DNA from: Saksenaea vasiformis B4078
Lineage: Eukaryota > Mucoromycota > Mucoromycetes > Mucorales > Saksenaeaceae
Direction of reading: 5' to 3'
DNA: 42,530 nucleotides
NCBI GenBank assembly: GCA_000697055.1
Contig: JNDT01001354.1
Location: forward strand, 1-42,530
This document shows, piece by piece, positions 516 to 42,530 of this stretch (the first letter of the stretch is position 1; every line of letters starts with the position of its first letter). A program made the translations under genes and the position numbers. The notes beneath the pieces are model-generated. The model had not been told where the DNA came from and did no database searches. It saw only the letters and a program-made list of their open reading frames with translations.

Positions 516-539
516 TATTTTTATTACGGCCGTGAGCGC

Positions 540-1010: not shown

Positions 1011-2237
1011 AAAGTAGCAAACGTAATCAGCTATCATATGATTCAATTATGCTAGATGCTTATGCAATACTTTAGATAAGGTCCTGTTTGTTATTCGTAC
1101 AACTTCAAGAAAGATGGAGAAGAGAAGATCATTTGAAGCGGCTGGACATATTGATTTTTTTTCCAATGTCTCTCTATTGTTCGCAATGCAGTCTTTTCAG
1201 AACTAAGATACTCAACGAACAGTTGTCTCCGTGATAGATCTAGCCGCGCTATCTTATGAGATACTCCTGCAATGTCACCGAGTTAGAGATGAGGCATAAT
1301 TGGTGCCGCAGTATTGAGAAGCTCACTGAAATAGACGATCCTGATCTCCCTGTTATGTAACGCATTTCTGAAGGACGTACTCTATGACAGTCCACATATA
1401 CCACATCCGCCGTTACGAGCATGCTCTCGACTATCAGTTTTCAACTCTTCACGAGATTCACAACATCTGTCAAGAAGACGATCATGGGTATCGGCCGTCT
1501 AAGAGGACCATTAATAGCTGTCCGAAGGAAATCGGCCAGAGAAACCTGTGACAACTAAAAAGGTTCGACGACCAGAACCATTTCTATGTTTCTAATAAAG
1601 TGTCTCCCTTTTTAATTCAAGGCCCTGGTAACAGTGAAGAACCTGAAAATAGGCGGGGGATGAAATAAAAGAAAAAGGTCATTGCGGATCACCTCCGGCC
1701 TGGATATAGCAAATATCCGCTGTTACCCAGGGAGAACTGAAGAATCATCTCGGCGAACTGAGGAAGGATTTCCGTTAAGAGTAGGCGGATAGCCAATCTC
1801 ACCCCCTGATTACTTCGTACCTTTCTACACAATAAAACATGGCATAGTAATGGTCAGAGTTCTCTGATATGTGCGTTCTATGTCGCGCAAAAGCGTCCCG
1901 ATTTTGTTTTAACCCTCCAAAAACACATTGAAGGTGGGCTTTAGCGAGGAAATGAAAATTATCATAAGCTTTTCTTTGGTCACAGCGAAAATGCTGAAAA
2001 TAGACAAGGGATGGAAAGTTCGAGGCCTGTATTAACACGAGAGACACTGTAATACTTTGGTAACTGCGGTAGATCAACGTTGGGCATCTGGTGGATTAAG
2101 CTTCGCGTTTTTCGCAGGGATTTCAATGTCTTGCGTAGTATTCAAGTCGTGGCAAAGCGACCAACAGCTAGCTAATGTTTCAGCCGTAGACTGTACACTG
2201 GAGAAAGAGGCTGGAAAAATCTTAGATTTTAGTTACA
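1011..2237. other. Gene-poor stretch upstream of Fanzor relic
   Basis: No supported gene. A 55-codon frame at 1384-1551 (+) begins MTVHIYHIRRYEHALDYQF and is not recognised. It could be a remnant of the missing N-terminal half of the downstream Fanzor. Frames around 1830-2160 are broken by stops. Confidence 0.4.
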
Positions 2238-3248
2238 ATGTCCACTACAGTCGCAATGACCGAACATCGCATCAACTTCCACAAGAATCTATACGAGAAA
2301 TTTATTGCACCAAACAGTGAGGGTACAAAACATTACAAACGTCGGTAATGCATTTTTAACAAAATGATAAAGGATCCTTCGAGCACGCCGCAGAGGCATT
2401 GACATCAGCGACAGAAAGACAGCTAGTTATGCGCCCGCCAAAAGCACACAGAACAACGAGCAGTGCCCTACACGAGAGTTGTCTCACACATTATTTTGCA
2501 AGACTCCGCAATAAAATTAAGGTATGAGTGTAGTATGGAACCTATCTAGTATTCATAACTTACAGGCCAGAAATGCCGATGTCGTGGAGGCAGAGAAAGT
2601 GCTGAGGGAGAACGCTCTGAGGAACGCGTCCTCAGAGGAAGATGTAGATCGCTGTCACAGGGTAAGCGTGATGCAGTAACTGGCACCGTTAACGCATAGA
2701 TTTATGTGTAATTGTAGGTCGCACGAGAATGCCGAAAGGTATTGCGAGATTTTTATCTGTCTCCCAGGGAGCAGCGCCGCCGCAGGACGGCGACCCTATG
2801 GAAAACAAAGATTTACGACCGCACAGCGGCACAGGAATTGAGCTATGTGAAAGAAAGGGATGGTGTCCCTGTGATGTGCATAGGCAACGCAGGGACCGCG
2901 GTGGGTAGCAACATTAAAGGCCATGCCAGAAGAGGTGGCAAATGGCTTCGAAGACTACTTCGGCGACATGCCACTATAGCAATGGTTGACGAATTCAGAT
3001 CTTCTCAAACGTGTCCCTATTGCTTCGGGACGGTGGTTCGGCCGACCATAACGTGTACAAAAAATGGAAAGACGACAAGAATCAAGAGCAACGGCTCATC
3101 TACTTGCTTCAATGTAGAGTGTGTTGGCCGTAAACACAGATTCACCACGCACAATCGAGACACGATAGCGGCTATGAACATCGCTCTCGCAGGGGCCAGC
3201 TCGATGCTGGACGGAGAAACACTGCTCCCTTTCAGCAGACGTCAGTAG
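2238..3248 (+). pseudogene. Fanzor (eukaryotic TnpB-like) RNA-guided nuclease, disrupted
   Basis: The C-terminal half is clear. Exons 2378-2521, 2566-2661 and 2718-3248 join in one frame across introns of 44 and 56 nt. They encode the helical linker (VLRDFYLSPREQRRRR, LWKTKIYD), then IGNAG..GSNIKGHARRGGK, the RuvC-II motif MVDEFRSSQTCPYC with catalytic Glu, a four-Cys zinc ribbon (CPYC ... CFNVEC) and the RuvC-III motif HNRDTIAAMNI with catalytic Asp. A RuvC-I candidate, RRGIDISDRKTASY, lies near 2395 but one frame away, reached from 2238 (MSTTVAMTEHRINF) by a possible 49-nt intron at 2345-2393. The N-terminal ~200 or more residues usual in the family are not found. This suggests a truncated, frameshifted copy. 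It differs from the Fanzor1 at 37.9-41.0 kb, so it is not a recent duplicate of it. Confidence 0.75.
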
Positions 3249-4196
3249 AGATATCGAGAAAATAAAATATTGCGAAAAGTTCTATTGCACATTTGATTCA
3301 CTATCGAGACCTTTTAGAGCTTCGAACTTTAAGTGATATTGTATACTATCTGTACCATTCTAAAAGGCTGTCAAATTTTCAAGTCTGTCGAAATCTTCTC
3401 ATATCCAGCAGGAGTATTCACCGAGCTTCTGGAAGGTAGCATAAGAAATGCAAACTAAATAAGAACTGTATGACGGTAGCAGATGCAAGATAGGCGCACA
3501 AAGAGGAAAAACGTTTTTATCTTCTTCGTCTGCAAATTGGCCGTCTCCAGAGGAAATCTGAACAGTCGGCCCTCACACGCGGCTTTTGCTTGTTCGACTG
3601 CGACATGTCAGACGGCGGATAAACGCACAAAGGGGCACGAAATATTCTCGCGCAAGTGCTTCCAATCGTGAATTGCCTAAGCACACTGGATATCAACTCC
3701 CAAGTTTGATTTTACACAGAAATGAAACAAAGTCCAGGAATTGATGGTTATACTCTATCACGATTTTGTAATCATTTCTCACTGGTGTACTTCACCAGCA
3801 AATGAATGATTTGCAAAGGGTCCACCCATTGAAAGAAATGTCAAATTCTCCCAGTTACGAGAAGCAACGATAAAGCTCCTACGACTCGACATGTAGGCCA
3901 CGAACTTCTGCTGTATGCTAATCGAAACCCTACAATTGCGAAATTCTTCAAGAGAATCAGACACCCATGTCGGATGAAGATCTCGCTGGAGGTGAAACAA
4001 ATTTCAAAAAAAGATGCAGCGACTCACGTTGCATTCATCCATAAAAGGACCGCAGATTCTTTGTGGAGGCGGAAAGTCCTAAGATTTATCTGAAGAGTTG
4101 AAGTTATTGCTTCATCTACTTTGGTCTTGCCCGTGTAAAACAAAAGTTTACACAGATGATTCCGACAGTGTCAATACCCTATCGGAAAACAGCAAA
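3249..4196. other. No gene seen; 3' flank of Fanzor relic
   Basis: There are only short unsupported frames. If the relic were still functional, a guide RNA would be sought in the first few hundred bases after 3248. No shared motif with the 3' flank of the second Fanzor was found by eye. Confidence 0.5.
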
Positions 4197-4423
4197 AATG
4201 TCTCAAGGTTAAGGAAGACGTTCCACGGAAGCAATAACATCGTTTTTTGCATTGAAATGCTTCGGTGATGGTCCTTCCGAAAGCAGCAAAAATTGTTCAA
4301 GATAGGGAAAATGTCTCAAGGTAAGGAAGACGTTCCACGGAAGCAACAACATCATTTTTTTTTTGGCATTGAGATGCTTCAGTGATGGCTCTTCCGAAAG
4401 CAGTAAAAATTGTTCAAGGAAAA
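4197..4423 (+). repeat. Tandem repeat, two ~113-bp units
   Basis: Unit 1 (about 4197-4309) and unit 2 (about 4310-4423) share AATGTCTCAAGGT..AAGGAAGACG, TTCCACGGAAGCAA, a T-run, GCATTGA.ATGCTTC, GTGATGG.CCTTCCGAAAGCAG and AAAAATTGTTCAAG. A third partial unit runs into repeat copy B, whose 5' end is the same GTGATGG..GAAGCAGTAAAAA box. The tandem therefore amplifies the head of the dispersed repeat. Confidence 0.85.
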
Positions 4424-4910
4424 TGTCTCAATCCGTATTTAAAGGAACGCGTGGTTCTTTTTTCTTTTCTTTGGCTCTGTTTTCTCTATTACATCCTCGG
4501 TACGTACTGGGATTTATTATACATACGGGATTCCTCATGTCTTTTTGTCTATTGTTCAGACTCATGGTCGTTAAACACAATAGCCGGCCATCTTGCCGTG
4601 CCGATCCAATCTCGCCGCCCCCACCCGCTATGGTGCGGGGCTGGCCCCTGTCGAATGGCAGGAGTGCCCTTCGGGGGTAAGTAAACTGACATCAAAACAT
4701 ATTTCATTTACTAACCGTGAATGCCGTTTTATGCTGCTCCAATAAATTATGCGTCGACCGAGGGCCATGTTGATGTAAGTAAACGTATGATTTTGGTTGC
4801 CAGTTCGTTAACTAATGACCGTATATTTTATTTTTCTCTCAGCGCAAATTTGGCTCTCCACGGACGCATAATTTATTTAGAGTAGCGTAAAATAGTGTTC
4901 AATAAACAGT
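4380..4910 (+). repeat. Dispersed repeat family, copy B
   Basis: This is the same element as 1-515 and 41290-41965. It has a TATA-like CGTATTTAAAGGAACGC (about 4434), GGTAAGTAAACTGACATC followed by TTTACTAACC, a perfect 14-bp inverted repeat ATAAATTATGCGTC (4742-4755) / GACGCATAATTTAT (4863-4876), and an intron-like segment between the arms (TTGAT|GTAAGT ... TTAACTAAT ... TTTCTCTCAG|CGCAAA). It ends with TTCAATAAACA, which resembles a polyadenylation signal. No open reading frame is conserved between copies, so a spliced non-coding transcript is possible but not shown. Confidence 0.85.
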
Positions 4911-7160
4911 ACAGTACAACGAATTGATTTTATCGTATTTGTATAGGAAGGTTGGATCATGCGAGAGGAAATTTATCAACAGCTGTAGGGCATCACTTTC
5001 TTTAACATCTTCTTCTGTGTAGTGTTGACCAGCACCGATCGACTGAGACGATTCACGCGTTCTGCCGAAAATGAGCTGTTCAAATGGCGAAGACCCATCT
5101 GCCAGCGTTTGTAATTGCCGTTACTGGTGGGAAAGAATCTATTTCAGGTATCCAAACAACACCGGATCAGATATGCGAAATAGAAACAAAAATAAAAGCA
5201 GCTATCTGTACCTCTTCTTAGCACCAGAGTGGGTCTTCAGCTTTGACGCCATGCCTCTGGCCGACTGACCGTAGGGTGCCAAATTGCGAGAAACAAAACC
5301 TCCTATTTCTTATAAGCTATTGTTCGCTATGTAACATGCACACAACTACCTAATGAGCCGAGCATCGCAGGAATGAGACAGGGATCGTTTAAAAAGAAAA
5401 GGAAAGACAGGCCAAAACCAGACACACAAACCGAGCCAGGGATTCCTGGCCAAGCCACTTTCTTAGGCTGTGCGAAAAAATACCTTGACCCATACCCTGT
5501 ATATCACAACGGTATGCCCACTGCAGTTCCTCAATTGTGATGGACTTGTATCTGCTTTTCTCAATTCGACGAGAATAAATGCGACGCGGGACAGGATTCA
5601 TCCAGGATCCGGAGCTGCTATGATTTGGTTTTCTTGTGTATAATTGTACTGTAAAATTTTGCAGTAACCCACATCAATTTCAAGCTGAATTATTTGGTTG
5701 ACAACGCTCTTGCTCAGACGCAGCTTTATTCAAGTTTTTACAGCGATGTAGTGAATAAGCATTCATTATTTATACTTTGAAAGCATCAGAGGAGCATCCT
5801 CAGTAATCTATTCCCGAGCGAATTCTGGCGTCCCCTTAATCCCACACACCGAGGCAACAGTACAGTGTAGCAGCAACAAAGTAGCTGGTATCAAAGCTGA
5901 CTATCGTCAAATCCAAGAATATAAGTTCTTCTAAGGCTTTCAGCGCGTGAACTGCATCATTTTAAGAGAGCTGGGTTGGAAAGCAAACATCGCGGTTTAC
6001 GAAAAATCACATTTTGCATAAAAGAATCATTCCCCCATGGAGTTATTTTCATCGACCACAGCCGGGAGATCATACAGCTTTGAACCTTTATGTTGCTTAC
6101 TGCTTCGTTTATTGAAACCGGTGACTTATTATGTATCAAAGGAAAATCACGTTTTCGCTTGGCTCTTGACAACAGCAAAGGAAGTAAAAATTGGAACCCA
6201 CGACGTAACAAGCGCCAGCATACAAAGAATAACATAACAGATATTTCCTCATCCTGGAACTACTAGCTGTACCATCTTTCTACTATTTCCCATTCTTGCA
6301 ATAGCATATGTACTACCTTTATCCACAAATACCTGCGGGCGGTGTTCGGACAACTACCAGCCATCGATAGTTCCAGTCCAACAGTACATTCTGCATAAAT
6401 CTGATACTATGCGTAATGACTTGAATATCATATTCACTATAGAAACCAAGATTCGATCCAAATCAGGCACGGCCAACCGAAGATCAGATAACAGAAGAAA
6501 TTAACTGTCCGTGATGACTGACAAGCATTGATACAAAATGCTCATCCTGCGGATAGTATCGCAATACTCGGACAATAGAACGTATTAGGTACGACACAAC
6601 AAAAGATACCGCTCATAATCGGTATTTCTAAAAACGTTCTGCCATAGGTTCAAGCCAAGTGTGGCGTCTCTACAGTAGTCCGACGTGTGGTGAGTCAAGG
6701 CAGTCACGAGAAGAAGTGAGGCACCATTGTAAAAAAAAAAAAAAAAAAAAAAGGCCTCCAACTTGGGAACATCATCCGAAACGGGGATTCATATATATAA
6801 TTGAAGTTATGGAAGCTATCTATACTATTCGTTTCCTTGAAATAGCATTTAATGCTCCAACTGATAACCATATATCTCCCTAAAACTGCGCACGGTCTCT
6901 GTATTATTTATGACATCCGTCACTAAATGGGATGTGGCGGAGCTTGTCGCCCTGTAACACAAATCAGCCCGGAAATTCCGTGTCAATGGTGAAGTGTTGT
7001 ACAAAGCCTTTTTTTCTCCAAGGTCAAATGCAGTAAAAAGGAGGTCTAGACAGCTGCATTGACTGCGGCAGAGAAAAATTTTGTGGTGAACTGCGCCAGC
7101 ATTTGGCAGCAAATGACGATAAAAACGCAGGATTGTTTCGTCCTTCTTCCACAAACCAAC
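4911..7160. other. Gene-poor intergenic region
   Basis: No supported gene. A minus-strand frame at 5601-5389 (starting MNPVPRRIYSRRIEKSRYKS) reads protein-like but ends within 70 codons, has no splice continuation that I could find, and is not recognised. The other frames are short and AT-driven. Confidence 0.5.
6731..6752 (+). repeat. Poly(A) tract, 22 A
   Basis: An uninterrupted run of 22 A. It could be a retro-insertion tail or slippage. No retroelement body is recognised next to it. Confidence 0.9.
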
Positions 7161-9494
7161 ATGGAATACGCAAATTTCCCTTCTCATCTTCCTTTCTTCA
7201 AGACACTTCATGATCCAGCACTGCTTGCGAAGGATATTGCCGCACTCTCTATTCCCAAACGCTTGAAGACCGCTAGATCACGAGAAAAGCGGAAGACTCA
7301 GCTCAAGAAGGCCATTCCCGGAAAGCGTTTTGTTGATGCTCTTCACGAAACCAGTAACTTGACAAGAACTACGAACGATGCGCTGGCTCACAAAACAACT
7401 CTCCAGTACTGTGTTGATTTGAGCTTCCAGTTTGGAAACGAAGGCTGGTCTGCTGACGGACTCATTACCCTTTTGAGTAATGCTTGGGACGAGGATGACT
7501 TGTGTACTCTGCGTCAGATTTTCCAGACTCGTTCTATCCATCAGGGGAAAGGTGCCAAACTCCCAGCTTACTTGGCTTATGGTTGGCTTTTGAAGAACCA
7601 TCCGCAAACGGCTCTCAAGAATCTGCACATACTAGTGACCGGAACCATTGAAGGAAGATTGAGACGTCAGAAGGTATTCGAAGATGACTGGGAGTCCGTA
7701 GAGAAGGTGTACCTTAAGTCGCACGGCTACTGGAAGGACCTGCTGAACCTACTGCAGATTTACGCGGCCGGCGAGCTAATGAATCCAGGATTACCAGGGC
7801 TTGGCTACAAGGTATTGAACTGTCCTCGCATGGAGCGTACCAAGTCGTGGAGCGAAAAGGCTGAACACAAGAGAAAACTCAGGGATAACCTCATTCATCT
7901 TCGAACTCTCCCACCCAAGGAAGCAGCCAGGGAGCGAGAGATTCGCGCACGGCGAGTACGCGAGGCCGAAGCTGCTGAGAAGGTTCGAGCACATAATGCC
8001 CGTGTTAAGAAGCGTAAACTACGCCATTCCCACCTAGTGAATCTGCTGAAGAAGGACGCATTGTACCGTGCATTGCATTTCACCGTTGCGAGACTTTTTG
8101 CGGAACAGTTGAAGACCGATAAAGCCCAGTTGGAGAAGAACCGTCAGAAAAAGTCGAACTTTCGGTATGCACTTGCTTACGACCTGAGTCTCGCTGCCAA
8201 GTGGGCGCCATCCCTGCGAAGATCCCATGACAACTACACATTTATCGCGACATCGATTGCTGAATTGCTGTTCCCGCCAGAGCAGTACCAGACCAAGGGT
8301 GAATCAAGACCTGACTACCTCAACAAAGCGCGGAATCTGTATCATAAGGAATACCTGGTGCCCCTACGTACTGCTCTGGATTGCATTGAGGGTCGCATGT
8401 CGAAGAATGAATGGATGAAGATCGATTTTAGCCACGTCCCTTCGTTGTGTATGCAGAGAAATATGGCCAACTTTGTGTCACACGTACCCGAGCAGTTCAA
8501 GGCATACATTGCCCAAGTTTCCAGTGGCAAACGGTCAGTCAGCGGCGCAGCGTTGCAGCCACATGAACTGGTGGCAAGCGTGAGTGAGTTGCATGTCGCC
8601 AGCGAAACCAAGCTTACGAAGCTCTTGGAGAAGGTGAAGGGCCTTGACATGCGCAAGGATATCCAGGAGATTGAGCAAGAGCTGATCAATGGACAGTGGA
8701 GAACGTTGATCGAATCTATCAAGGCATCGGCATCCAGCGACAATGCGAACCTTGGTCAATCAATCGCTATTTGTGACATGTCTGGATCCATGTTCAGTCA
8801 TTATCCCGGAAGCAAGATCGTCCCACTCTACAGCGCTATGGGTTTGTCGTTGGTCCTAACGGCCTTGGCGAAACCACCTTTCGACGGCACAATTATCAGC
8901 TTTGCAGAGAGGCCAGAAGTTATCAAGGTCAACCCAATTTCCCCGTTGCGCACTCAAGTGAAGACACTCGAAGAGTCTAGGGCAGGCTTTACTACCAATT
9001 TCAAAGCAGTGTTTTTGAAATTGCTCTTACCAATCGCGGAAAAATACGAGCTGAAGAAAGAAGAAATGGTCCAGCGCGTCTTCGTCTTTTCGGACATGGA
9101 ATTTAACCAGGGTAGTGGAACAAGGAACTGGGAAACCACATATCAGCACATCAAGCGCAAGTACGATGAGGCTGGCTATGACATGCCTGAAATCGTCTGG
9201 TGGAATCTAGCGGCCCGACGATCGGATGTGTTTGTTCATCAGAATGCCCCGATGCCTGTTACAGCCGATGTCAGGGGTTGCTCGATGATGTGTGGTTATA
9301 ATGCATCCATTTTCAAGTCGTTCCTGGACGGTGACCTGGATGATACTGCAGAAGATACGAACGACGAGAAGGACGACGAAGAAGTCAAACCAGTGAAGGA
9401 AGAAAAGCGAAAAAAGGAAAAGCTCACACCGACAGAGGTTATGTATAAAATCCTTGAACACCCCAGTTTCAAGGATCTCGTTGTAATTGATTAA
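7161..9494 (+). CDS. DUF2828 family protein with vWA domain
   Basis: Intronless, 777 aa from the ATG at 7161, which has A at -3, G at +4 and a pyrimidine-rich leader. The frame is open upstream to a non-ATG codon at 7059, and another ATG lies at 7113, so the start is uncertain. The C-terminal third is a von Willebrand A fold: AICDMSGSM near residue 539 is the MIDAS motif (DxSxS), followed by FAERPEVIK and VFVFSDMEFNQ. The N-terminal two thirds carry the helical DUF2828 pattern (AYGWLLKNHP..AL, GYWKDLLNLL, ALHFTVARLFAEQL, KWAPSLRRSHD). The tail is acidic and lysine-rich. The family occurs in plants, fungi and large DNA viruses, and its molecular role is unknown; the TROVE-like layout suggests RNA binding, which is inference. 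Confidence 0.9.
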   Translation: MEYANFPSHLPFFKTLHDPALLAKDIAALSIPKRLKTARSREKRKTQLKKAIPGKRFVDALHETSNLTRTTNDALAHKTTLQYCVDLSFQFGNEGWSADGLITLLSNAWDEDDLCTLRQIFQTRSIHQGKGAKLPAYLAYGWLLKNHPQTALKNLHILVTGTIEGRLRRQKVFEDDWESVEKVYLKSHGYWKDLLNLLQIYAAGELMNPGLPGLGYKVLNCPRMERTKSWSEKAEHKRKLRDNLIHLRTLPPKEAAREREIRARRVREAEAAEKVRAHNARVKKRKLRHSHLVNLLKKDALYRALHFTVARLFAEQLKTDKAQLEKNRQKKSNFRYALAYDLSLAAKWAPSLRRSHDNYTFIATSIAELLFPPEQYQTKGESRPDYLNKARNLYHKEYLVPLRTALDCIEGRMSKNEWMKIDFSHVPSLCMQRNMANFVSHVPEQFKAYIAQVSSGKRSVSGAALQPHELVASVSELHVASETKLTKLLEKVKGLDMRKDIQEIEQELINGQWRTLIESIKASASSDNANLGQSIAICDMSGSMFSHYPGSKIVPLYSAMGLSLVLTALAKPPFDGTIISFAERPEVIKVNPISPLRTQVKTLEESRAGFTTNFKAVFLKLLLPIAEKYELKKEEMVQRVFVFSDMEFNQGSGTRNWETTYQHIKRKYDEAGYDMPEIVWWNLAARRSDVFVHQNAPMPVTADVRGCSMMCGYNASIFKSFLDGDLDDTAEDTNDEKDDEEVKPVKEEKRKKEKLTPTEVMYKILEHPSFKDLVVID

Positions 9495-19577: not shown

Positions 19578-19724
19578 CTCTGGTTATGTGGACGCGAATT
19601 ATTCCTTGGATTAACGCAAAACAACCTACTTCCCAATGAAAGGACGCACCACAGCCCAGCGCAAAATTTATTCGACTTGAATGTCATAATATTTATTTAA
19701 TGTAAATGCTCACTCAAAATGCAG
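19578..19724 (-). repeat. ~148-bp dispersed repeat, inverted copy
   Basis: Read on the minus strand, this matches 41123-41271 (+) from end to end. Shared landmarks are CTG.ATTTTGA.TGAGCAT, TTACAT.AAATAAAT, TTATG, AATAAA.TTTGCGC, TTTTGCGTTAA.CCAAGGAA and ATAACCAGAG. It begins five bases after the stop codon of the scaffold gene, so it forms that gene's 3' UTR. The other copy lies just behind the Fanzor1 stop inside the mobile element. No long terminal inverted repeats were seen. Confidence 0.85.
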
Positions 19725-19728
19725 TATG

Positions 19729-25800: not shown

Positions 25801-25969
25801 ACTTGCCTGCTACCTCACTCTGACTGCACACAGACCATTTCTTTGTTCATAATCCCAAACCTCTGCTTGACATAAGAAAAAAAAAAACCAGCGCCCTTTA
25901 CTTGAGGCCTCCATTCTTCTCTGCTTCTATAAGCATCACTTGCAAATTCGTAAAAGCGTGGAACAAATA
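22890..25969. other. 3-kb divergent intergenic region, no gene seen
   Basis: Lies between the starts of the scaffold gene (-) and the MAPKKK (+). It holds simple A/G-rich tracts (22995-23085), A- and T-runs (23577-23588, 24369-24380) and several 60-87-codon frames without family likeness or splice continuity. No tRNA, rRNA or transposon signature recognised. Confidence 0.5.
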
Positions 25970-28900
25970 ATGTGGACAATGCCCGACAGAGATACCAAGC
26001 ACGCCGATCGCAAGCATCCAAATGAAATCCTCCTTGGCGGGGAGAGCCAACTGCAGGACTATGAGTCTCTCCATGCTCGCCCTCACCAGCAGGGTATTAG
26101 GTTTGAAAAACAAATACAGTACGACAAAGATGATATCAATCCTGGCTGGTCTTTGGCCCTATCCGGGAATATACCGTTCGGGGATTTTCCCATATCGATG
26201 GATGACGAGGATGACGACTATGATTATGATGATTACGAAAATAGCGACGATTATGACGGTAACAATAGTAACAGTACGAGCAGGCCCATCCCAGAGGAGG
26301 ACGAGGAACCGCCGTTCAGTCAGACGTATCCTCCACATCAGTCGCAGTTAGTACTATCGCCCGAAATGGCGCGTGAGCGGCTTGAATGGCAGCAGATGCT
26401 GCAATCGGTCCTTATGGGCGAAGTGGTTAAATCGGAGAAAAAAAGGCTGATGAGCACTGATCATTTTAAGTTACCGAATCCCGTCCAAGAAATATGGCTG
26501 TCTCTACGAGCGTTATTGCGTGGAAGAACAATTGCACAAGAACAAAAATGCTTGGAAGAATGTAGGCGGGATGTTCCCGGTGTGCTGGACATGGTGCTTG
26601 ATTTCAAGGTGGATGAGGAAGCAAAGTCACCAGCATTGGTCCAAGTAGCCGAAGTACTCAAAAGTATCGACAGAATTGAGTCACTTTATCCAACCCGTGC
26701 AGATATGATCAAGGCCCATCCTAAATATGGCAGCGCTGAATTTCAACAGCGCTTGGACGCACTGAATGCCTGGTGTACTACCACACGTAGTTTGCAGATG
26801 CAGTACAAGATCCTCCGCGATTGGACAGGATCGGAGAATCTGCAGATCACACGAAAGCAGGGTCTTACCGAATATGATACCCAAACAATCCAGTCGTTTG
26901 GACACGCAAACCAACACGATGACCCCTCCTTTCTGGAACGTATACTCAAAGAATCGGCTCTGCAGGATACCTTTGACAAACGCACGCTCTCTGCTCTTAA
27001 CTCGTTGCTTCTGAAATCAAAACAAACAATGATTGACAACACAGACCTGTTCCAGGAACTCCGACTGCCACCCTTCGTCTCTCAGTTGCGAAAGCTGGCT
27101 TACTTCCCAGCATCGTTGGTGGTCGAAGCAATGAAGCTACGTCTTGAATACTCTAGCAGATTGAACGAGCCACCAAAACAGATTATTGATGCCATGCTCG
27201 AAGATTACCGCGGTCTACTAGCGCTTGCATGTCGTGTGAAACAACAACATGAGGCTTTTGTCCAATCTGCTCCCGGGTGGGAATTTCAGGACGATCCCGC
27301 TGTCAGTCAAAACTATGATAACGTGCTGATGGAGTCGATGCTCTTCTACTTCAGGTTAATATCGTGGAAATTAAAGCTGGAGAGAGATAATACCCTGCGT
27401 GTCTGCGAAGTCATGGAAAAGGAATGGGAATTTCTGCAAATGTCTGTCTGTCGTGTTGTTGACAAAGCCTTTGGGCAATGCGCTGAATGTTTCTGGTAAG
27501 TAAACCAATCCAAAGAATAGTTTAAAATTGAGATAGTTTTCTTTTTGCTGGTGTAGCTCCTTGACGAATGTTCAGTTGGAAGAGGTCATGGATGACTATG
27601 TTTCTAGTCTAAAAGGACCGTGGAAAGACAATAGTGCCGAATTAACCTGCACAAAAATCCTGCATACAATGCGCATGCGAGCACGCAAATTGCTCCAATT
27701 TTCAAAGTAAGAATACCAGATAGAAAAGATCGCTGGTCTTTCTTAACTTTCTTTTTTGGGGGGATAGATTTTTCATAAGCCAGTTCGAAAATGCCGCAGA
27801 ATACCTGCTAAACGACGAGAACTTGCCGTTGTTTGTGTCTTGTCTAGTGGAGAGTGGCCATTTTCTGGTATACACTGGTGCTTTTGAAGAAGAACACACC
27901 TACGTTGTTGCATCCCCGTCCTTGTATGGACGCGAAGATATGATCAATTTGCTCCTCAAGTCTCGTTACGCGTTGGGTCATAATCTTGTGGAAACGCCCG
28001 GCACTGCTGGTCAGCTAGCCAGCGCGAGAAAAAACGTCGACTATGTTCTATTCCTGACACCGTGGCAGAATATATTATGGACAGGACATGCTATCGAGAT
28101 CCCTATAGCAAGCATCAACGCAAGGATTAAGCCAGGTCGTATTCGGATCGTCGCAAGAGATTCCAAACTGCTTGTAGGTGCGAAAGCTTGTTTTTGGGAA
28201 GTCATACAGCACACGGGTATCCATATTATTCAGGATCACAAAGCCCATCTTCCCAAAATCAATAAGGAGTTGTCCAAAATCAAGAGCACAGTCTATCGAC
28301 TTGCTAACTCTACAATCGCAAGTGTGCACACAATTCAAGAGCAAACGATTAACTTGGGATGCCAGGAACTTGTTGAAGAGTGCTTTAGCTTCTCCAGCGA
28401 CTTTGGTCTGCGTAGCGCAAAGATGCTAAAACTGAAAATGCGCCAGCAGCTTGACATTAAGCTTATCCGGCTTGCTATCAGCTGGATTTGTTTTGTTACA
28501 GACAAGTGTATTCCTACCGACCGTAAAACGTTTCGTTGGGCGGTCGCTGCTTTAGAGTTCGGCCACACAATGACAAGAGGCCGCAGCATTCTTGCACTGG
28601 AAGAAGATGAATTTGCGACGCTTCAGAGTAAAGTGGCGCGCTGTATCGCTTTGCTCATATCACACTTTGACGTTCTTGGCACGCGTTGGGCCCATGATCT
28701 TCAACTCAAACAGAAGGAAGAAAGAATGCGCGGCATTACTGCAAAGCGTAATTCCTACATGACAGGCAAACGAGTCGATAAGCAATCGATTACAACGAGT
28801 TCAACCTTTGGAGCTGAGACCGACGCTGTATCCTTTTCTGGTGGCGTGACATATATCCGTGACGCATGGATGCGCAGAATTTCAGAGCTGGAAACAAAGC

Positions 28901-30314
28901 GCAACAAAGAAGAGCGGGAATGCAAACTTGTCGGCAAAGTGCTGGACGATCAGAAACCAGAGGATAAATCGTTGATGTTCTTGGCACCCTCATCCTCTAG
29001 TATTTCCTTCCGTTGGCAACAAGGACGATTTATTGGGGCAGGAACTTTTGGATCCGTATATATTGCTATCAATCTTGACACTTCCAGCGTGATGGCAGTG
29101 AAAGAAATTAGGTTCCCTGACTCTAACTCGTTGTCCACTCTGCACAAGTCTATCAAGGAAGAGATGAATGTGATGCAGATGCTATGTCACGATAATATTG
29201 TCCAGTACTACGGCATGGTAAGCATAAAAGATATTCTTGGTAAATGATGAATGGACACAGAACGATCTTCATCCTTAGGAAGTACATCGGGACAAGGTGT
29301 TTATCTTCATGGAATACTGCGAAAACGGCAGTTTGGGCGCATTGTTAGATAACGGAGGACGAATCCAGGACGAATTCTACATTGTTAGTTATGCGCATCA
29401 GCTTCTCAGCGGTCTTGCCTATCTGCACAGCAACAATATCATACACAGAGATATTAAACCCGACAGTAAGGTTCCAATTAAGAGGGCATATTTTTAACGA
29501 GGTGGTTTTAGATATTCTCATTGATTATCAAGGTCGGCTTAAACTAACAGACTTTGGCGCATCAAAAATCCTAGCCAAAGGCCAACGTACAACCGGAAGA
29601 ACGACTATCAATGTGAATGCCAATAGTTTAGCTGGCACACCGATGTACATGGTAAGTAAAGAAAAAAAAAAGGAGAGATAAATAGAGCGAAATTCTCTAA
29701 ACCCTTTGTTTCAGGCTCCAGAAGTAATCACTGGTGGTAATACAGGACGCAAAGGGTCCATGGATATATGGTCATTGGGATGCTGTATTGTTCAAATGGC
29801 TACAGGCCGACGTCCTTGGAGTACGCTAGAAAATGAATGGTCGGTCATGTACCATGTTGTGACAGGCCATCCTCCATTACCAGACGTATCGCAAATGACG
29901 CGACCAGGTATCAGCTTCCTGAAGAAATGCTTTGTACGCAATGCACGGAAACGACCTAGCGCTGAAGAATTGCTCCAAAATCCATGGATCAAAGATTATT
30001 TGAAAAGCATCAGCGAAGAAACACAAGATTTTTCAGCTGGTGATGGTACAACGGTGCCTGTGTCAGCTTTGCCGATGGAAAAACGGGATAGTCTAACAGG
30101 GAGAATGGACCCGCCCTACGCACGAATATATGATAAGCCTATGGAAAGAACCATTCCAAACAGCTTAGCATTCAACGGCATGCTGGACGGCCGCAATGGT
30201 CCAGAAGCACAGACTCATCTTCAAATGATTGCCAAAAACTCAGCACCAGGTCAAGCACTGTCGATACATTCCAACGCTGGAGACGAAATCAATCGCTCAC
30301 AACCTCCGGTTTAA
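25970..30314 (+). CDS. MAPKKK of the Ssk2/Ssk22/Wis4 (MEKK4) type
   Basis: Six exons by eye (25970-27495, 27557-27706, 27768-29217, 29279-29465, 29512-29651, 29715-30314), about 1350 aa, in the range of Wis4 and Ssk2. The frame is open upstream of 25970 but without ATG. A low-complexity acidic N-terminus (~80-115) is followed by the large helical region of the family (IWLSLRALLRGRTIAQEQ). The C-terminal kinase has the Gly loop GAGTFG (982-987), Lys1004 in MAVKEIRF, catalytic HRDIKPD (Asp1100), DFGASKI (Asp1118) and a GTPMYMAPE activation segment. In fungi this kinase takes the signal from the Ssk1 response regulator and phosphorylates the Pbs2/Wis1 MAPKK in the Hog1/Sty1 osmotic and oxidative stress cascade, in the cytoplasm. 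Confidence 0.95.
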
Positions 30315-30725: not shown

Positions 30726-32181
<1,456 letters not shown>

Positions 32182-32409: not shown

Positions 32410-35906
<3,497 letters not shown>

Positions 35907-36030: not shown

Positions 36031-36039
36031 CTCAGGGTC
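36031..36039 (+). repeat. 9-bp target site duplication, left copy
   Basis: CTCAGGGTC abuts the left terminal inverted repeat and is repeated directly, without mismatch, after the right one at 42109-42117. Confidence 0.88.
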
Positions 36040-36060
36040 GGGTTTTGCTACACGCACCCC
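36040..36060 (+). repeat. Left terminal inverted repeat
   Basis: Begins GGGTTTTGCTACACGC and ends CACCCC. It pairs with 42088-42108 with two mismatches. A shorter inverted copy of its first ten bases (AGCAAAACCC) occurs at 36157-36166, a subterminal repeat or the far end of an older small element. Confidence 0.88.
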
Positions 36061-36282
36061 ATCGGCGCACCCCGAAAATGACGTCAATACAACTAGCCAA
36101 TCATTTAATTTTCTTACCTTCCGGACGCCGTGACGTTCCGGTTCCATCCCGGAAGCAGCAAAACCCGGGCCCGACGGATGGGCTGGATGGCGGGTCCCTA
36201 CCGCCTTACCACTTATAGTGGATATGGGAGAACTGAGTCACAGCCAGGACCTGTAGCTTTTCATCCATAGTCTGATCATCGC

Positions 36283-36366
36283 TGCAAGTTCCAGGAAGTT
36301 CCTACTCTGTCGAATAGACATTGCTGTGAACTCCAAGAAACTCCTGCTCTGCTCAATAGATCTATA
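36283..36366. repeat. Two diverged ~40-bp tandem units
   Basis: GTTCCAGGAAGTTCCTACTC..TCGAATAGAC and GAACTCCAAGAAACTCCTGC..TCAATAGATC follow each other. On the minus strand they lie in an 84-codon frame (36492-36238) and give the repeated peptides SIEQSRSFLEFTAM and SIRQSRNFLELAAM. The frame is not recognised as a gene. Confidence 0.6.
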
Positions 36367-36425
36367 AGAATAATTTTGTGTTTTCTCTTTTACACGTAAA
36401 TCAATACTTACGAAAAAGATGCCCG

Positions 36426-36497
36426 GCTGAGACTGACCGCTTGCAGAGACCCAACAAACTTGGGGGACCAACTTTATTGTAAGCCCCTGCAAGCGGT
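36426..36497. other. Hairpin with 11-bp arms inside the transposon
   Basis: ACCGCTTGCAG near 36437 and CTGCAAGCGGT near 36486 are exact inverted repeats around a ~38-bp loop. On the minus strand a TATA-like CCTTTATACC lies just upstream. This could be part of an old LTR or a promoter. The class is not decided. Confidence 0.45.
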
Positions 36498-36519
36498 ATA
36501 AAGGAAGCCTAGAAAGATA

Positions 36520-37854
36520 GCTGTAGTTAATTGTTTCTTGGTGAAAGAAAAAAAAAGAATTGTTACATTCCTGTCAAATTGTTGTCGCATGCATGAATAA
36601 ACAACCCAGGGTCACTTGAAAGGAAGAAGTACGAGATCTTGTGCCACGTGGAAGAGAGTAAAGTAATCTACTTTTCCAAGTTAATGGAGTTTATTATAAA
36701 CATAAACAGCTTACCAAGCTTGACACCATCCGTAAATCGCCCTTTTGCAGAAATGTCACCAACAGAAGGTATGCTTTCTTTTTTAGATCTTTACACTCTG
36801 CATCAGAAAACAATGTGGAAACTACTGTATACTTACCGATAAAAGACAAAATAAAAACATGAAAGGCAGAAAGAAAAAGAGAAGTGACAACGAATGGAAC
36901 AAAAAGAAAATCTTTCACGTCACCGTCCCGGCCTTTTTCACACGGGACATACTCAAATCGTAGATCTGTATCCCTTGTCGAATCAACTACTTGACTATAG
37001 TCGTAAACTTCACGTCTGTGGATGCGCCAGCGTGCCCTGTATAACCAACACCTCCTCCGGGAAACGATGGTCTGATAGTCGGAACTTTCATCCTCTAAAG
37101 CGTCCGTTTTCAGATCCAGCTGTCACATAAAGACATTCTGAAGTACCAAGGTTCCAAGCAGATCGGTTTCATACAGATAAGCATGTCTTGGCACTGCTCT
37201 GAACCCGACCGCCGTGCTCGTATAACTTCTGCTGTAAACGACAAGCACACAAGGATCTTCACGACTTTGTGTATGTATTGGCTCGCTCTTTAACAATGAT
37301 TAAGATACCGACACAAATATGTATAATTTCTCTTCCTCTCAAACGTTCACGTGCAGAGACGGATCTAGAATCACGGGATTATTACTTGCGAACGTTCCTG
37401 AGAGCATCCTCAATAAGCATTTCCTTGCTAAACACCCTGCCTTACAAGATCGATATCCAGCGGTTGCCCTTATAAAATACAAATCATAGAAAATTGGCCC
37501 CATCAACCGCCCCAGATCTTTTATGTAATCTAAATCGTACGTAATACTTGAGGTATTTAGTGTAGCTTTTATCGGGGTGGCATATAGGAATCCTTGGAGA
37601 CTCTTGTTTATTATAAGTAAAAAGGGTGGGAGAAAGCATAGGCTGTCTGCTACACTGCTCTTAACTCATTGATGGTGTTACAATACACTTGGTCGGTAAA
37701 TACGACAAGACTCAATTAAGCTGTTCCAATTTTCCTGTTCGATGTATAAACAGTAAATTGTTGTCTACAGTAATATGAGGGACTGCCAACAAGACGGGAG
37801 CAAACAAAGGATTTTCTTCAAAGAAAAGATCCCCTTATTTTTTTTATCATTGTG
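36520..37854. other. Left interior of transposon, no gene seen
   Basis: About 1.3 kb between the terminal region and the Fanzor1 start. No transposase motif and no frame over 78 codons. It presumably holds the Fanzor promoter. Confidence 0.55.
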
Positions 37855-40800
37855 ATGGAGCCACAGAGATTTAGAGCAGCCTTGTTATCACGTAATGAAG
37901 GTCAATGTACCCTTATCTCCAGAAAAGAAAACCTCAGTTCACTGCTTCGGGACGATTACAAGTATCTTCGGGTATGCACTGCTGCGCATCATCCGGTTAC
38001 CAATGATTATTAGGGCCATATGCGCGTGGCGGCAGAAGCATTCTCCGTTGCAAGACGTGATGCTCTTAATTTAGTGAACATCTACATTCGGAGGTGGATC
38101 GAGTCTGAGTTCAACACTTTCCCACCGATCGGCAGGGGAGTCTTCTGGTCTGCCTCCCTGAAGATGGGTCTCCTTCATCAAAACCGAGGAATTATCGTTC
38201 GTTATGTGAGTATCTATGCCGCAGTAGTATGCTGTAGCTCATGATGCATAATAGCCTCAGGACCAGTGGGTAGACGATCTCCGTAGGACGTACCATGAAT
38301 GCTACAATCCAACGAGGCACAGTGACTCGCCAGGAGAGGGTGAATCAAAAATATACTACAAAGATATGATGTCTCATACAATAATGGTATAGCGCTCACT
38401 GAAATCCTTCGGGTGCAGGCCCACGAGTACGCGCCAAACGCTGCCGCAAGGCAGTATAATGAGTCTCAAGAAAATTTAATAGAAGTTAACGGAAACCTCA
38501 GACGCTAGAGAACACTTGACTTCAAATTTGACCAGCAATTTACGCAACCTATGGAAGAGCTTTTTTCTATGGATTCGAGATGAATTCTCGATAGAACTTC
38601 CACAAGGTCCCATCGCCCTTAGTAAACACATTGTGATAATCACCATACAGCTGATACATTCTGTGAAATAATTGACAATAGCCAACACAGTTATCAGAAG
38701 CGTCGCACAGCATACCGCGCCGGAGGACATAAACGTCCTACGCCCACATTTTGCTCAAGAAATCGTGCGCCAGTTCTATCAGTGAGTCCTAGAAAGAGAC
38801 AATCGATACAGAAAAAATGACCCTTAAATATATATACAGGGCCTTGATGATAGAATTTGAATCGATGTTTGGAGAACGCACACTTCAACAAATCGAAGAG
38901 AAAGAAGAAGAAGATCTCCTGTCGAGCTTCGTACTATTCTCAGCTTGGTTGTTGGCGCGGCAAGAAATATTGGGTGGGAAAGTCTGGTCGCTAATGCCAA
39001 TGCCTGGGCATCAAATCGGTAAATTCAGTACTAAACAAAATACATGATCTAACTGCAACACCTACATGCAGTCTACGTGCAGATAAATACAGAAGCATTG
39101 TATTATATTCTACGGGATTCCAGAAACGCAGGCAACCCGCTTCCTGACGAGATCGCAGTAAGTTCTATGTTCTATCTGAAGATACTCATATAAGGTTAGT
39201 CCGTGATGACCACGAAAGATACCTTCATGGATCATTATCGGGGGGCGCATCGCAAAGAGCGACTATGGGAAACTATCTTCAATATTGACAGTGTTGAACC
39301 CAGAAGGCGTCGGCATCAAAGTAACATAGCCTCGTTTGTAAATATACTAGAAGCATGTAGATCTCCATACTGTAAATCAACAGATGCGCCCAGTGGAATT
39401 TGCGAACACAATTCAGACGGACGGAGCAATGGTGAGCGTCCGCTTCTACATAAGAAGGACAGGTATGTTGGTCTGTGCACAGGTCTTATAATTATAACCC
39501 AATATTTGGCATTACAGAACAATATCCATCATCTCAAAGAGAATTCCGCCTCCTTAAAAGAAATGAAGATCTTTCTAACGGAGAGAGAGGAATTACCCAT
39601 CTGAAAAAGGAACCAGTAGGATTCACCCCGGATGACCTGCAAGAGTGTAGGATTGTGGGGATCGATCCCGGTACGTTCTTAAGACCCGACCACTGTCATT
39701 TGACGATTCGCACCAGGGATCCGATCCTTAGTGACGACGGTTGACACGTCAGAAGGTCTTCAAGACCGAATACACCGAGAAGCGCACACCTTCTCCCAAA
39801 CAAACGCCGATTACCAGTAATGCTGCGGTTGCATCTGTCATAGATATTAACTAGCACCGGGGTAGAATTCGTTCAATGTTTCGATGGGCACAACAGCTAG
39901 AGAAGAAGCACAGAGAACGTAGTGGCATTCAATCCGTATATGATAACTTGAGCACGTATCCAGGAAGAGTTCTGACTGCTCAAGCATTCAAAGATCATCT
40001 GCTGGTGTTACACAGAAATCACCCAAAGTAAGGGGCTTATATTGCTTTTCTAGTGCTAACTGGTCCTACAGACTATTTAACTTCAGCAGGAGATACAGGC
40101 ACAGAGAGACGAGAGGCACACTTTTCTCTGCACGCCAGTCGGCAATGAGCACGATAGCAAATAAGCTATCGGGAGCCTACCCGTCGGTGCAACTGGTATT
40201 CTTCGATAAACTTTAATGAATGCATGGTACTTACTAGTGCTACTGTAGCCCCAAACATGGGTGCACAAATCGACGTCCGCTCAAAGACGCCGTGTTAGGC
40301 ATAACATGTGGAGACACTCGGCGATGCCAATAGACCACAGAAGGACAGTTATCGCGTACGGCGACGCGGACCTCAAGTCCTCGTATAAAGGACGCGCGCC
40401 TTTGCCAACGAAAGTAATCTCCATATTGACGAATGTAAGTAGCTGTTGACATGTAAACATGTTAGAGCTTTCGAAAAGTCGTTGCACAAAAAGCCCTAGT
40501 CGTCTGCGTCGACGAATATATGACTAGCAAGGCATGTAGCCGGTGCCACATGAGAACTGTTGATTTCCGACAGCCTGCACAGAAGTGCAACCACAAGTAG
40601 GCTGTTATAATCATAAACGGGAATAACTACTAATTCATTATCGACAGGAACAAACTGTTGCGACTCCGCAACGACAAGCGCAAGTACCGCTACTGCCTCG
40701 ATGACAATGGAAATATTATACAAAAGAGCAGCCAATGTCCTATGCAGCGTGAACTACGTGGGTTCTATAAAGAAAAGATCATCCATTTAATTGTTAGAGT

Positions 40801-41041
40801 TAATGTAGCCCCCAACGACAACCGAAACGTCGTATATTCTATACGGTTGTGTGAGGAATGCGCCAACGACACAGAAAGGCCTTTGGTAAGCCTTAATTCG
40901 AGGCAATACGAGTATACTCACGGAAGTTAGTTTTGGAACCGGGACATTAACGCCGGGATAAATCTTAGACAAGTACTCGTGGAGTACATTCAATCAGGTT
41001 GCAATATCGATTCTCGTCCACAGTACCTTGCAAGAAATTAA
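37855..41041 (+). CDS. Fanzor1, eukaryotic RNA-guided endonuclease, apparently intact
   Basis: Eighteen exons join in one frame: 37855-37971, 38014-38205, 38261-38386, 38419-38453, 38509-38621, 38682-38781, 38840-39018, 39072-39157, 39200-39337, 39384-39462, 39518-39670, 39732-39816, 39866-40027, 40072-40195, 40249-40434, 40466-40596, 40648-40885, 40931-41041; 784 aa. The N-terminal helical part (ARRDALNLVNIYIRRWI, INTEALYYILRDSRN, LWETIFNIDSV, NTIQTDGAMVSVRFY) is followed by RuvC-I VGIDP (Asp438), a linker (IQSVYDNLSTYPGR, FNFSRRYRHRETRG), YGDADLKSSYKGRAPLPTK, RuvC-II VDEYMTSKACSRCH (Glu642), a zinc ribbon (Cys649, 652, 737, 740) and RuvC-III FWNRDINAGINL (Asp753). All catalytic acids are present. 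The Gly usual after RuvC-I DP becomes Val with the chosen splice. Fanzors cut DNA under guidance of an RNA from their own 3' flank. Two introns (31 and 32 nt) are very short and should be checked. Confidence 0.9.
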
Positions 41042-41289
41042 AGTCGTATATTTGCTTCATTTTGCGTTAATCCAACGTTGAACCTTTACCTATCGTATTT
41101 CTACCATGCTGACCCAAAAATACTGGATTTTGACTGAGCATTTACATCAAATAAATGTTATGTGACGTTAAAGTCAAATAAAGTTTGCGCCGGATGGTGA
41201 TACGTCTTTTCGGTGAGAAGTGGTTTATTTTGCGTTAACCCAAGGAATAGTTCAGGCCTGGATAACCAGAGTCTTGCATTATGGTACTC
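41042..41289 (+). ncRNA. Candidate guide-RNA (omega-RNA-like) region of Fanzor1
   Basis: Fanzor and TnpB guide RNAs are generally encoded at and beyond the 3' end of the nuclease gene. This 248-bp flank has a conserved unit (41123-41271, see 19578-19724) and the motif TTTTGCGTTAA.CCAA twice, at about 41068 and 41230. Conservation of the unit at a second site supports a functional or mobile sequence. That it is the guide RNA is inference from position. Confidence 0.4.
41123..41271 (+). repeat. ~148-bp dispersed repeat, direct copy
   Basis: Pairs with 19578-19724 on the other strand over its whole length with scattered mismatches. It starts 82 bp after the Fanzor1 stop codon. Confidence 0.85.
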
Positions 41290-41965
41290 CAGTGATGCAT
41301 ATCCAGGATCCCATCGGAAGCAGTAAAAACGTCTCACAATAAGGAAAGATTCCAACGTATTTAAAGGGACGCATGAATTTCCTTTTTTTCTTTCTTTGGC
41401 TCTGTCCTTTCCAAGAAACATTCCGGTAAGGGTGTCCGTTCTTCAAAACGTATACAGGATCATTCATTCTCCGTGTTCATATTTTAGCTTACAAGACCTC
41501 TGCTCGAACCACTTTGGCTGCGTGAGCTCCCTCTTGTCACATTCAATAAATGAAATGACAACCATTTGTATGCACAGCTGTCGCTCATTCTTACATCCTT
41601 CAAGCCCTCACCAGGTGCTACATCGCCCAAGTCCTCTGTACTGCTATCAAAACTCGGCTGTATGGCCATTTGCAATCTCCACTGGGCCCACCGGTCCAAG
41701 GTGCGGTGCCAGCCCCCAGCATGAGCTGGGAATACCCTTCGGGGGTAGGTGAAGGACATCAAAGTATCTTCCATTTACTAACTGCGAATGGATTTTATGC
41801 TGCTCCAATAAATTATGCGTCCATCTGGGACCAAGTTGATGTAAGTGGAATATTATTTTATCGACTGGTAACCGCGTATTTGATCCCTTATTTAGCGCAA
41901 ATCTGGCTCTTGATGGACGCAAAGTTTACAGAGTAGCGTAAAAACCCATTCAATAAACATTATGT
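41290..41965 (+). repeat. Dispersed repeat family, copy C
   Basis: Longest copy. AGTGATG..GAAGCAGTAAAAA at the head, TATA-like CGTATTTAAAGGGACGC, TTCTTTGGCTCTG, TACCCTTCGGGGGTA, CATTTACTAAC, then the arms ATAAATTATGCGTCCAT (41808-41824) and ATGGACGCAAAGTTTA (from 41913) and the end TTCAATAAACA. It is about 150 bp longer in the middle than copy B. It lies inside the Fanzor-bearing transposon in the same orientation. Confidence 0.85.
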
Positions 41966-42087
41966 CAGATTTGTGTCAAGCGTCACAGATCTTTTCCCAT
42001 GCACATAAATTGCAGATCCGTGTTCCTTGTCAGATAAACTACATCACTAAAGCCTTAAACTACGTCATTTTTTGGGGTGTGGGGTGT

Positions 42088-42108
42088 GGGGTGCGCGTAG
42101 CCAAACCC
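42088..42108 (-). repeat. Right terminal inverted repeat
   Basis: Reverse complement begins GGGTTTGGCTACGCGC. A short GGGGTGT triplication (about 42074-42091) lies just inside it. Confidence 0.88.
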
Positions 42109-42117
42109 CTCAGGGTC
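42109..42117 (+). repeat. 9-bp target site duplication, right copy
   Basis: CTCAGGGTC, identical and in direct orientation to 36031-36039. Because it is direct and not inverted, it is not part of the TIR. Confidence 0.88.
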
Positions 42118-42530
42118 CCCAGATCGCGGCCACAGCAAACGTAAAAGTTAGGGACACGGTTTTGACTTTCCATATATGGTCTTGCGGACACGGTTTTACT
42201 GAAAACATTGTCCATGAGATATTTCAATACAAGTATATGTATATTGTAGTTGAATACATATAAATATGTTCATTATATACTGAACATTATAATGATCGTA
42301 TTCACTGTGCGTTTAAACGTATGTAACCATACTGTCGTTATTCAAACGTGTATAAGCATATCTATCTTGAATTTAAATACATATAGACGCCTTTATTGCG
42401 ATTATATATGTATATAGGCCCCCAATATTTGTTATGATCATCATCTTTCATTCTATATACGTGCCAAAGAGTAAGCAAAGGATCCACTTCTCAGCAATGG
42501 CTTGTCGTTTTGTTTGGCTCTATACTTGGC
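42118..42530. other. AT-rich flank, no gene seen
   Basis: Many ATATAT/ATGTATAT words and a small palindrome (TGTTCATTATATACTGAACA near 42269). No gene recognised. Confidence 0.5.

Follow-up and report, generated by a model that had tools for sequence, protein, structure and literature searches.

A predicted RNA-guided nuclease gene of the Fanzor1 family, with 18 predicted introns, in a transposon of Saksenaea vasiformis with MuDR-like ends and Fanzor-less relatives

Fanzor1 has been described from transposase-less MuDR-like elements with 9-bp duplications in Rhizopus, Phycomyces and Mucor in a 2013 publication, and multi-exon Fanzor1 genes with 5 to 10 exons, backed by expressed sequence tags (ESTs), are known from the Chlamydomonas elements CRe-1, CRe-2 and CRe-3 (PMC3627910). 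In Spizellomyces punctatus the guide RNAs span the right end of the element and 14-15 nt of its flank, ghost loci without a Fanzor gene are present and the role of Fanzors for the host or the transposon is stated as unknown (PMC10432273); the same account lists screens for target-adjacent motifs. We looked at a stretch of 42,530 nucleotides from the fungus Saksenaea vasiformis B4078 (contig JNDT01001354.1, assembly GCA_000697055.1), referred to throughout as the window, which carries a Fanzor1-family gene with 18 predicted introns inside a transposon of 6,069 bp. We consider it likely that this gene encodes an RNA-guided nuclease whose guide would consist of the right end of the transposon and the adjoining host DNA. 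A first-pass annotation made from the sequence had recognised the gene; it did not cover the transposon, the duplication, the Fanzor-less relatives or the candidate guide region.

The gene begins with an ATG at 37855 and stops at 41039-41041, and the introns are of the GT-AG type, as read directly from the window. The best-supported model, predicted from the sequence and its copies, is as follows.

37855..41041, plus strand: Fanzor1-family gene, 19 exons, 18 introns, 760 amino acids (aa), predicted splicing
Exons 1-5: 37855-37971, 38014-38205, 38255-38339, 38393-38453, 38509-38621
Exons 6-10: 38682-38781, 38840-39018, 39072-39157, 39200-39337, 39384-39462
Exons 11-15: 39518-39670, 39717-39816, 39866-40027, 40072-40195, 40249-40413
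Exons 16-19: 40466-40596, 40648-40757, 40809-40885, 40931-41041

An open spliced frame taken alone is weak proof of such a structure, since a blind GT-AG intron search run with four intron penalties returned four different open models of 570, 667, 715 and 751 aa, of which only the 751-aa model, from the strictest penalty, came near the final one. The model was therefore settled by comparison. Both the GT and the AG were retained at all 25 testable introns, that is those with both ends covered by an aligned copy (14/14 in copy L007, 9/9 in L008 and 2/2 in L009). Two places in the model called for a choice. The donor of the intron at 38454-38508 is uncertain, with 38454 leading to 760 aa and the alternative donor at 38427 to 751 aa, and we preferred the former because it gives an intron of more typical length. 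The 51-nt stretch at 40758-40808 is open in frame, and was treated as an intron on two grounds: copy L009 carries one additional base inside it, and three homologous proteins (C537, C275 and the Rhizopus protein P0001) have no insert matching it. The first-pass annotation had arrived at 17 introns, 18 exons and 784 aa, numbers that the comparison with copies replaces with 18, 19 and 760; the main difference is probably that the intron at 40758-40808 was left in, as the last two of its catalytic acids (D438, E642 and D753) lie 17 residues further apart than ours, equal to the 51 nt in question. Its in-frame GT-AG introns, its start and its normal stop stand, as does its remark that six-frame calling of open reading frames (ORFs) yields fragments: the longest stop-to-stop ORF within 37855-41041 has 134 aa. 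The gene is presumably spliced in the cell.

The 760-aa protein contains VGIDPG, YGDADLKSSYKGRAP, VDEYMTSKACSRC, CEEC and FWNRDINAGINL in that order, which is the family order already read in the first pass. The positions of the catalytic residues and of the zinc finger are given below.

39664..39666, plus strand: D433, RuvC-I aspartate in VGIDPG (residues 430-435)
40514..40516, plus strand: E635, RuvC-II glutamate in VDEYMTSKAC
40943..40945, plus strand: D729, RuvC-III aspartate in NRDIN
40535..40861, plus strand: zinc-finger cysteines C642, C645, C713 and C716, with two introns in between

All three acids of the earlier triad are present; its numbering was wrong and becomes D433, E635 and D729. 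Two fingerprints of Fanzors are a DPG at the first RuvC aspartate and a RuvC-II glutamate six residues before the zinc finger (PMC10711439), and the window protein has both, the former in VGIDPG and the latter as E635 followed by YMTSKA and then C642. It also follows the Fanzor pattern D-X(125,275)-[TS]-[TS]-X-X-[C4 zinc finger]-X(5,50)-RD (PMC3627910), by way of D433, T638 and S639, the four cysteines C642, C645, C713 and C716, and R728 and D729, with a C4 zinc finger that is long.

When searched as a single sequence the protein had no match up to 1e-3 among 5.8 billion proteins and no match up to E 1 in the PDB, and Pfam PF07282 remained below its cut-off of 26.3 bits both on the exon ORF 40466-40597 (E 1.1e-4, 22.7 bits) and on the 751-aa model (19.1 bits). 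Profile searches built on the C-terminal 488 of the 760 residues used three alignments: A1, comprising the window protein, C537 and C275; A6, comprising the window protein, one paralog (C537) and three Rhizopus proteins, with C275 left out; and A5, which is A6 with two distant database proteins added (P0010 and P0011). Against the 5.8 billion proteins A1 had 11 matches, eight of them Rhizopus microsporus hypothetical proteins and three others, with P0001 from Rhizopus as the best (E 7.5e-84, with the 488-aa query covered to 100% at 31% identity). The window gene itself is not among these 11 proteins, which together with the sub-threshold PF07282 scores agrees with the earlier expectation that automatic annotation would probably miss it. 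In the PDB the sole match of A1 was the Fanzor1 of Parasitella parasitica at E 0.093, while A5 reached the same protein at 6.1e-14 and the Fanzor1 of S. punctatus at 1.4e-12, with LaTranC chains next in rank at 0.29 and 0.45. Because P0010 and P0011 may drive these strong values A6 was run as a control, and it matched the Parasitella Fanzor1 at 4.1e-4 with a ribosomal protein as the runner-up at 1.3. Under E 0.1 the PDB matches of A5 and A6 were Fanzor1 chains only. The invariant columns of A5 include the D and the last G of DPG, the GD of YGDA, the DE and the T of VDEYMT, and RD-NA.

Judged by its DPG, displaced glutamate and RD and by its profile matches the gene belongs to the Fanzor family, and probably to Fanzor1 rather than Fanzor2, as the first-pass annotation had held in calling it a Fanzor1; where that annotation had allowed for an unrelated RuvC family as the outcome of a profile search, the top PDB matches were Fanzor1. 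From this relationship we infer that the protein would be RNA-guided. A different RuvC protein, for instance a TnpB or Cas12-like contaminant, would agree with the empty single-sequence searches of both databases but hardly with the introns, the eukaryotic-type neighbouring genes, the DPG with its displaced glutamate or the Fanzor1 chains at the top of the profile searches, and we regard this explanation as barely credible.

DNA of the window gene is found again at five further loci in the genome (C377, C501, C138, C185 and C315, the first three being copies L007, L008 and L009), and among the six loci the window copy alone covers the coding region in full. L007 has a frameshift and breaks off at a contig end, L008 is without its 5' part and L009 begins at a contig start, whilst the C185 copy is a fragment (76% identical) and the C315 copy a short match to the start region. 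Ratios of nonsynonymous to synonymous substitution (dN/dS, Nei-Gojobori) between the window copy and the others were 0.22 for L007 (562 codons), 0.195 for L008 (395 codons, from residue 365) and 0.25 for L009 (98 codons), and the ratio between L007 and L008 was 0.17 (198 codons); taken over all 448 codons L008 gives 0.33, a value that includes two stops and a misaligned stretch, and 53 codons were dropped. At about 0.2 these ratios show that the gene is under purifying selection. As synonymous divergence (dS) among the copies is 0.13-0.36, varying by pair and by gene part, the constraint has been sustained and does not merely reflect a recent burst; of the two explanations offered in the first pass, recent activity or selection, it is selection that holds, the copies compared not being a very recent burst.

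A more distant paralog on C537 (L075) is identical to the window protein at 322 of 726 aligned residues (44%). The spliced alignment between the two, with one frameshift allowed in C537, scored 1328, whereas scores did not exceed 299 for 18 stretches from elsewhere in the window or 253 for 5 shuffles. The C537 model has 17 introns; 12 coincide with window introns in both residue and phase and five more are displaced by no more than four residues, an agreement that is favoured by the paralog models having been built with the window protein as the query; the window intron at 39019-39071 has no counterpart in C537.

The gene lies within a transposon whose limits and internal parts are as follows.

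36040..42108, plus strand: whole transposon, 6,069 bp, with the Fanzor gene inside, bounded by terminal inverted repeats and a perfect 9-bp duplication
36031..36039, no strand: left target-site duplication, 9 bp, CTCAGGGTC, identical to 42109-42117
42109..42117, no strand: right target-site duplication, 9 bp, CTCAGGGTC
36040..36060, plus strand: left terminal inverted repeat, 21 bp, matching the reverse complement of 42088-42108 at 19/21 positions
42088..42108, minus strand: right terminal inverted repeat, 21 bp
36040..37046, plus strand: 5' unit, alignable over its full length with Fanzor-less relatives of ~1 kb, decayed right end included
36958..37046, plus strand: internal second copy of the right-end block, with a decayed inverted repeat

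Homology to other copies runs from 36040, as seen in L011, to 42108, as seen in L009, and the 5' starts of many copies lie near 36040. At up to three mismatches the end motif occurs at 100 sites in the genome, as compared with one site for a reversed-pattern control, and 11 convergent pairs of ends lie 0.1-9 kb apart, seven of them spanning 933-1026 bp and four spanning 6.07-6.5 kb. Perfect 9-bp duplications also flank two of the short relatives (L037 and L038) and a 6.1-kb element (L073). The duplication together with such ends points to insertion of the MuDR/Mutator type. Among the retrieved loci no match bridged both flanks in the manner of an empty site, the whole genome not having been searched for one. 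Two further full-size elements with the same ends were seen at C565:168152-174625 (6.5 kb, with a Fanzor match inside) and C626:83248-89554 (6.3 kb).

The 5' unit is identical to L037 at 649 of 942 aligned positions and gave similar results with L038, L031 and L027. Its internal decayed right end aligns locally with the right-end block at a score of 71, where the maximum in 200 shuffles was 42; it lies upstream of the gene and is also found in L007, L008 and L011. Because the segment 36040-37046 aligns with the short relatives and holds a second, decayed right end, the element has the appearance of a ghost-type unit to which a Fanzor gene and one more right end were added, in that presumed order of events.

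These data also bear on whether the element could be an intact-looking but silent relic, owing its mobility to other elements and making neither Fanzor nor guide RNA. The damaged or cut state of the other family copies (L007, L008, L009 and C185) and the multiplication of elements with a scrambled Fanzor, described below, would fit such a relic, but a dN/dS of about 0.2 between copies, an open frame of 760 aa and a perfect 9-bp duplication argue against it and we think it unlikely.

The right end is shared with the Fanzor-less relatives, and the following features were assigned in and near it.

42003..42108, plus strand: right-end block common to Fanzor-less relatives, candidate guide-RNA scaffold (predicted)
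42109..42124, plus strand: host DNA at the guide position (predicted), by analogy with SpuFz1 (PMC10432273)
41121..41965, plus strand: high-copy repeat of ~850 bp, with pieces also at 1-502, 4395-4911 and 19578-19727 (inverted)

Seven Fanzor-less relatives of ~1 kb (ghosts) have the same two ends as the window element. The right-end block (~106 bp) is present in whole or in part at 30 other places in the genome and is well conserved across 15 aligned copies, with copy-specific host DNA directly after it. By analogy with the S. punctatus system the right end and the adjoining host DNA are where a guide RNA would be expected, and the predicted guide would read CTCAGGGTC, the target-site duplication as its first 9 bases, and then CCCAGAT. 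The 18-mer that starts at 42109 has one occurrence in the genome at 0-1 mismatch and two further ones at 2 mismatches. A search with Rfam (gathering scores) and one for tRNAs found nothing. The ~850-bp repeat, for which 1016 first-look candidates were found and 40 scored, has neither inverted ends nor an evident target-site duplication; we rejected it as the main guide source, with 3/36 of the listed copies having a listed Fanzor match within 3 kb, all three of which adjoin Fanzor copies of the window family itself.

In the cycle that we favour the right end would be transcribed into a guide RNA running into the adjoining host DNA and the Fanzor protein would be loaded with this right-end RNA. 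When the element leaves, the Fanzor would cleave the re-joined empty site, and repair from a sister copy would put the element back, raising the copy number.

A number of results weigh against this cycle. The consensus fold of the right end has an energy of -8.1 kcal/mol, which was reached by 1/60 column shuffles, and a double change of any kind is seen in 2 of its 12 pairs, so that a conserved right-end RNA fold is at best weakly indicated. Upstream of the 16 left ends to which the flank-motif test was limited no motif was fixed, although the last base tended to be a pyrimidine (14/16). Fanzors are known to need a target-adjacent motif, and with no fixed flank motif a nuclease that requires a set one could cut some of the empty sites only. 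When ten end pairs were scored for the duplication two were perfect, one had 8/9 (L031) and seven had 4-7/9, the last group because of decay or imprecision at the ends. The paralogs C537 and C275 lack an intact second CxxC in the zinc finger. None of the 51 MULE-domain matches in the genome lies inside an end pair. Lastly, two relatives of 5.5-6.1 kb (L073 and L074) have the same ends and a Fanzor in which the C-terminal half runs in the opposite direction to the N-terminal half; they are 88% identical over 4.7 kb with the same inversion in both, and this scrambled element has thus made at least two copies. As it multiplied in this state an intact Fanzor in cis is not needed for spread, and taken together with the lack of a fixed flank motif this makes a Fanzor that acts in trans, or on some of the copies, more plausible than a cycle confined to one element.

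The 19 ORFs beside the Fanzor gene in the transposon gave no transposase match and the contig of the window no MULE match. Of the MULE-domain matches elsewhere in the genome 48 are above the family cut-off, and the sole match within 10 kb of the ends lies beyond a closed pair. With no MULE transposase recognised in this or the same-ended elements, the element is MuDR-like by its ends only. Among the matches listed, for 12 of 96 Fanzor loci an end lies on the inner side at a distance of up to 6 kb, where ~1.5 would be expected, three of the 12 being copies of the window family itself. Because the MULE matches lie outside the end pairs whereas Fanzor loci lie near such ends more often than expected, the transposase is probably supplied in trans; it would likely come from one of the MULE elements of the genome, among which none with the same ends was found.

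It is conceivable, if rather unlikely, that one intact Fanzor serves the whole transposase-less, MULE-ended family in trans by way of the common right-end scaffold and guides taken from the flank of each copy. As the first nine letters of the guide are the target-site duplication, each guide would then address the empty site that its own element leaves behind. Such an arrangement, if true, would amount to a distributed and self-updating RNA-guided system that restores the copies of a cut-and-paste family whose transposase comes from elsewhere. A rival proposal is that the host has adopted the nuclease, or that it works in trans for other transposons, perhaps guarding the whole genome by means of guides from ghosts. 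Help in trans has been raised for S. punctatus (PMC10432273), and both the seven ~1-kb relatives, which carry the two ends of the window element, and the 30 other places with a right-end block, each of the 15 aligned copies with a flank of its own, would suit this proposal. We nonetheless find it quite improbable, given that the gene is carried by an intact transposon that has a duplication of its own and is one among many Fanzor loci, and that in the single strain at hand there is no sign of a fixed host locus. The cycle involving the right end and host flank of the element therefore stays our preferred explanation, and the availability of a full-length copy with exact ends alongside short and scrambled relatives allows a test of cis against trans action, as well as a test of the need for a target-adjacent motif, which the insertion sites appear not to supply.

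The genome is rich in Fanzors, with at least 193 six-frame matches to the C-terminal part of the window family in 38.7 Mb. A second Fanzor-type C-terminal ORF is located in the window itself, and the ordinary host genes lie between it and the transposon.

2718..3248, plus strand: second Fanzor-type C-terminal ORF, MVDEFRSSQTCPYC ... CFNVEC ... HNRDTIAAMNIAL
7050..9494, 25871..29247, 30730..31581, 32984..33796 and 34415..34918: ordinary host genes

The second ORF matches PF07282 at 2.3e-5 and 24.9 bits, against the cut-off of 26.3, and its family has 138 six-frame matches in the genome. The 3.7 kb around it (500-4200) are 100% identical on C88, and a piece of the ~850-bp repeat is also found downstream of it. 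Host genes in the window encode a DUF2828/DUF7788 protein, a MEKK4-type kinase, an HMGL-like enzyme and, on the minus strand, formate-tetrahydrofolate ligase and tetrahydrofolate (THF) dehydrogenase domains; the kinase, the HMGL-like and the formate-tetrahydrofolate ligase neighbours place the window on a eukaryotic chromosome, and the matches to Rhizopus proteins point to a host that is likely a fungus akin to Mucor. The right flank at 42140-42530 is a repeat (100% identical on C322, 98% on C330, 93% on C157 and 88% on C510) and may be the cause of the contig end. A pattern search of viral contigs gave 50 matches, none of which was confirmed.

The closest described systems resemble the window element to differing degrees. 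Like the Rhizopus, Phycomyces and Mucor elements of the 2013 publication it has a Fanzor1 gene, MuDR-like inverted ends, 9-bp duplications and no MuDR transposase, a likeness judged from their description; unlike in that account, whose passages on these elements make no mention of them, there are short relatives sharing the right end. With SpuFz1 and its element Spu-1 from S. punctatus it shares a Fanzor1 between inverted repeats and the presence of Fanzor-less ghosts, the guide RNA of SpuFz1 being at the right end (PMC10432273), but Spu-1 is described as having a single ORF, a length of ~2.1 kb and a putative TA duplication (PMC3627910) as opposed to 19 predicted exons, 6.07 kb and 9 bp in the window. 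The Chlamydomonas CRe-1, CRe-2 and CRe-3 elements likewise have a multi-exon Fanzor1, with Helitron ends and fewer exons according to their published description (PMC3627910). Among solved structures the Fanzor1 of P. parasitica (PDB 9cf0-9cf3; described in PMC11423790) is the best sequence match, the similarity being weak, and the closest database proteins are the hypothetical proteins P0001-P0008 of R. microsporus, which have 550 aa or fewer and of which P0001 and P0003 have DLG in place of the DPG of the window protein. The window element is accordingly a well-preserved further example of a published element type and not a new kind of system, to which it adds, relative to the accounts cited here, a complete copy whose limits are exact, an intron-dense gene structure backed by comparison, ghosts with the same ends and scrambled relatives.

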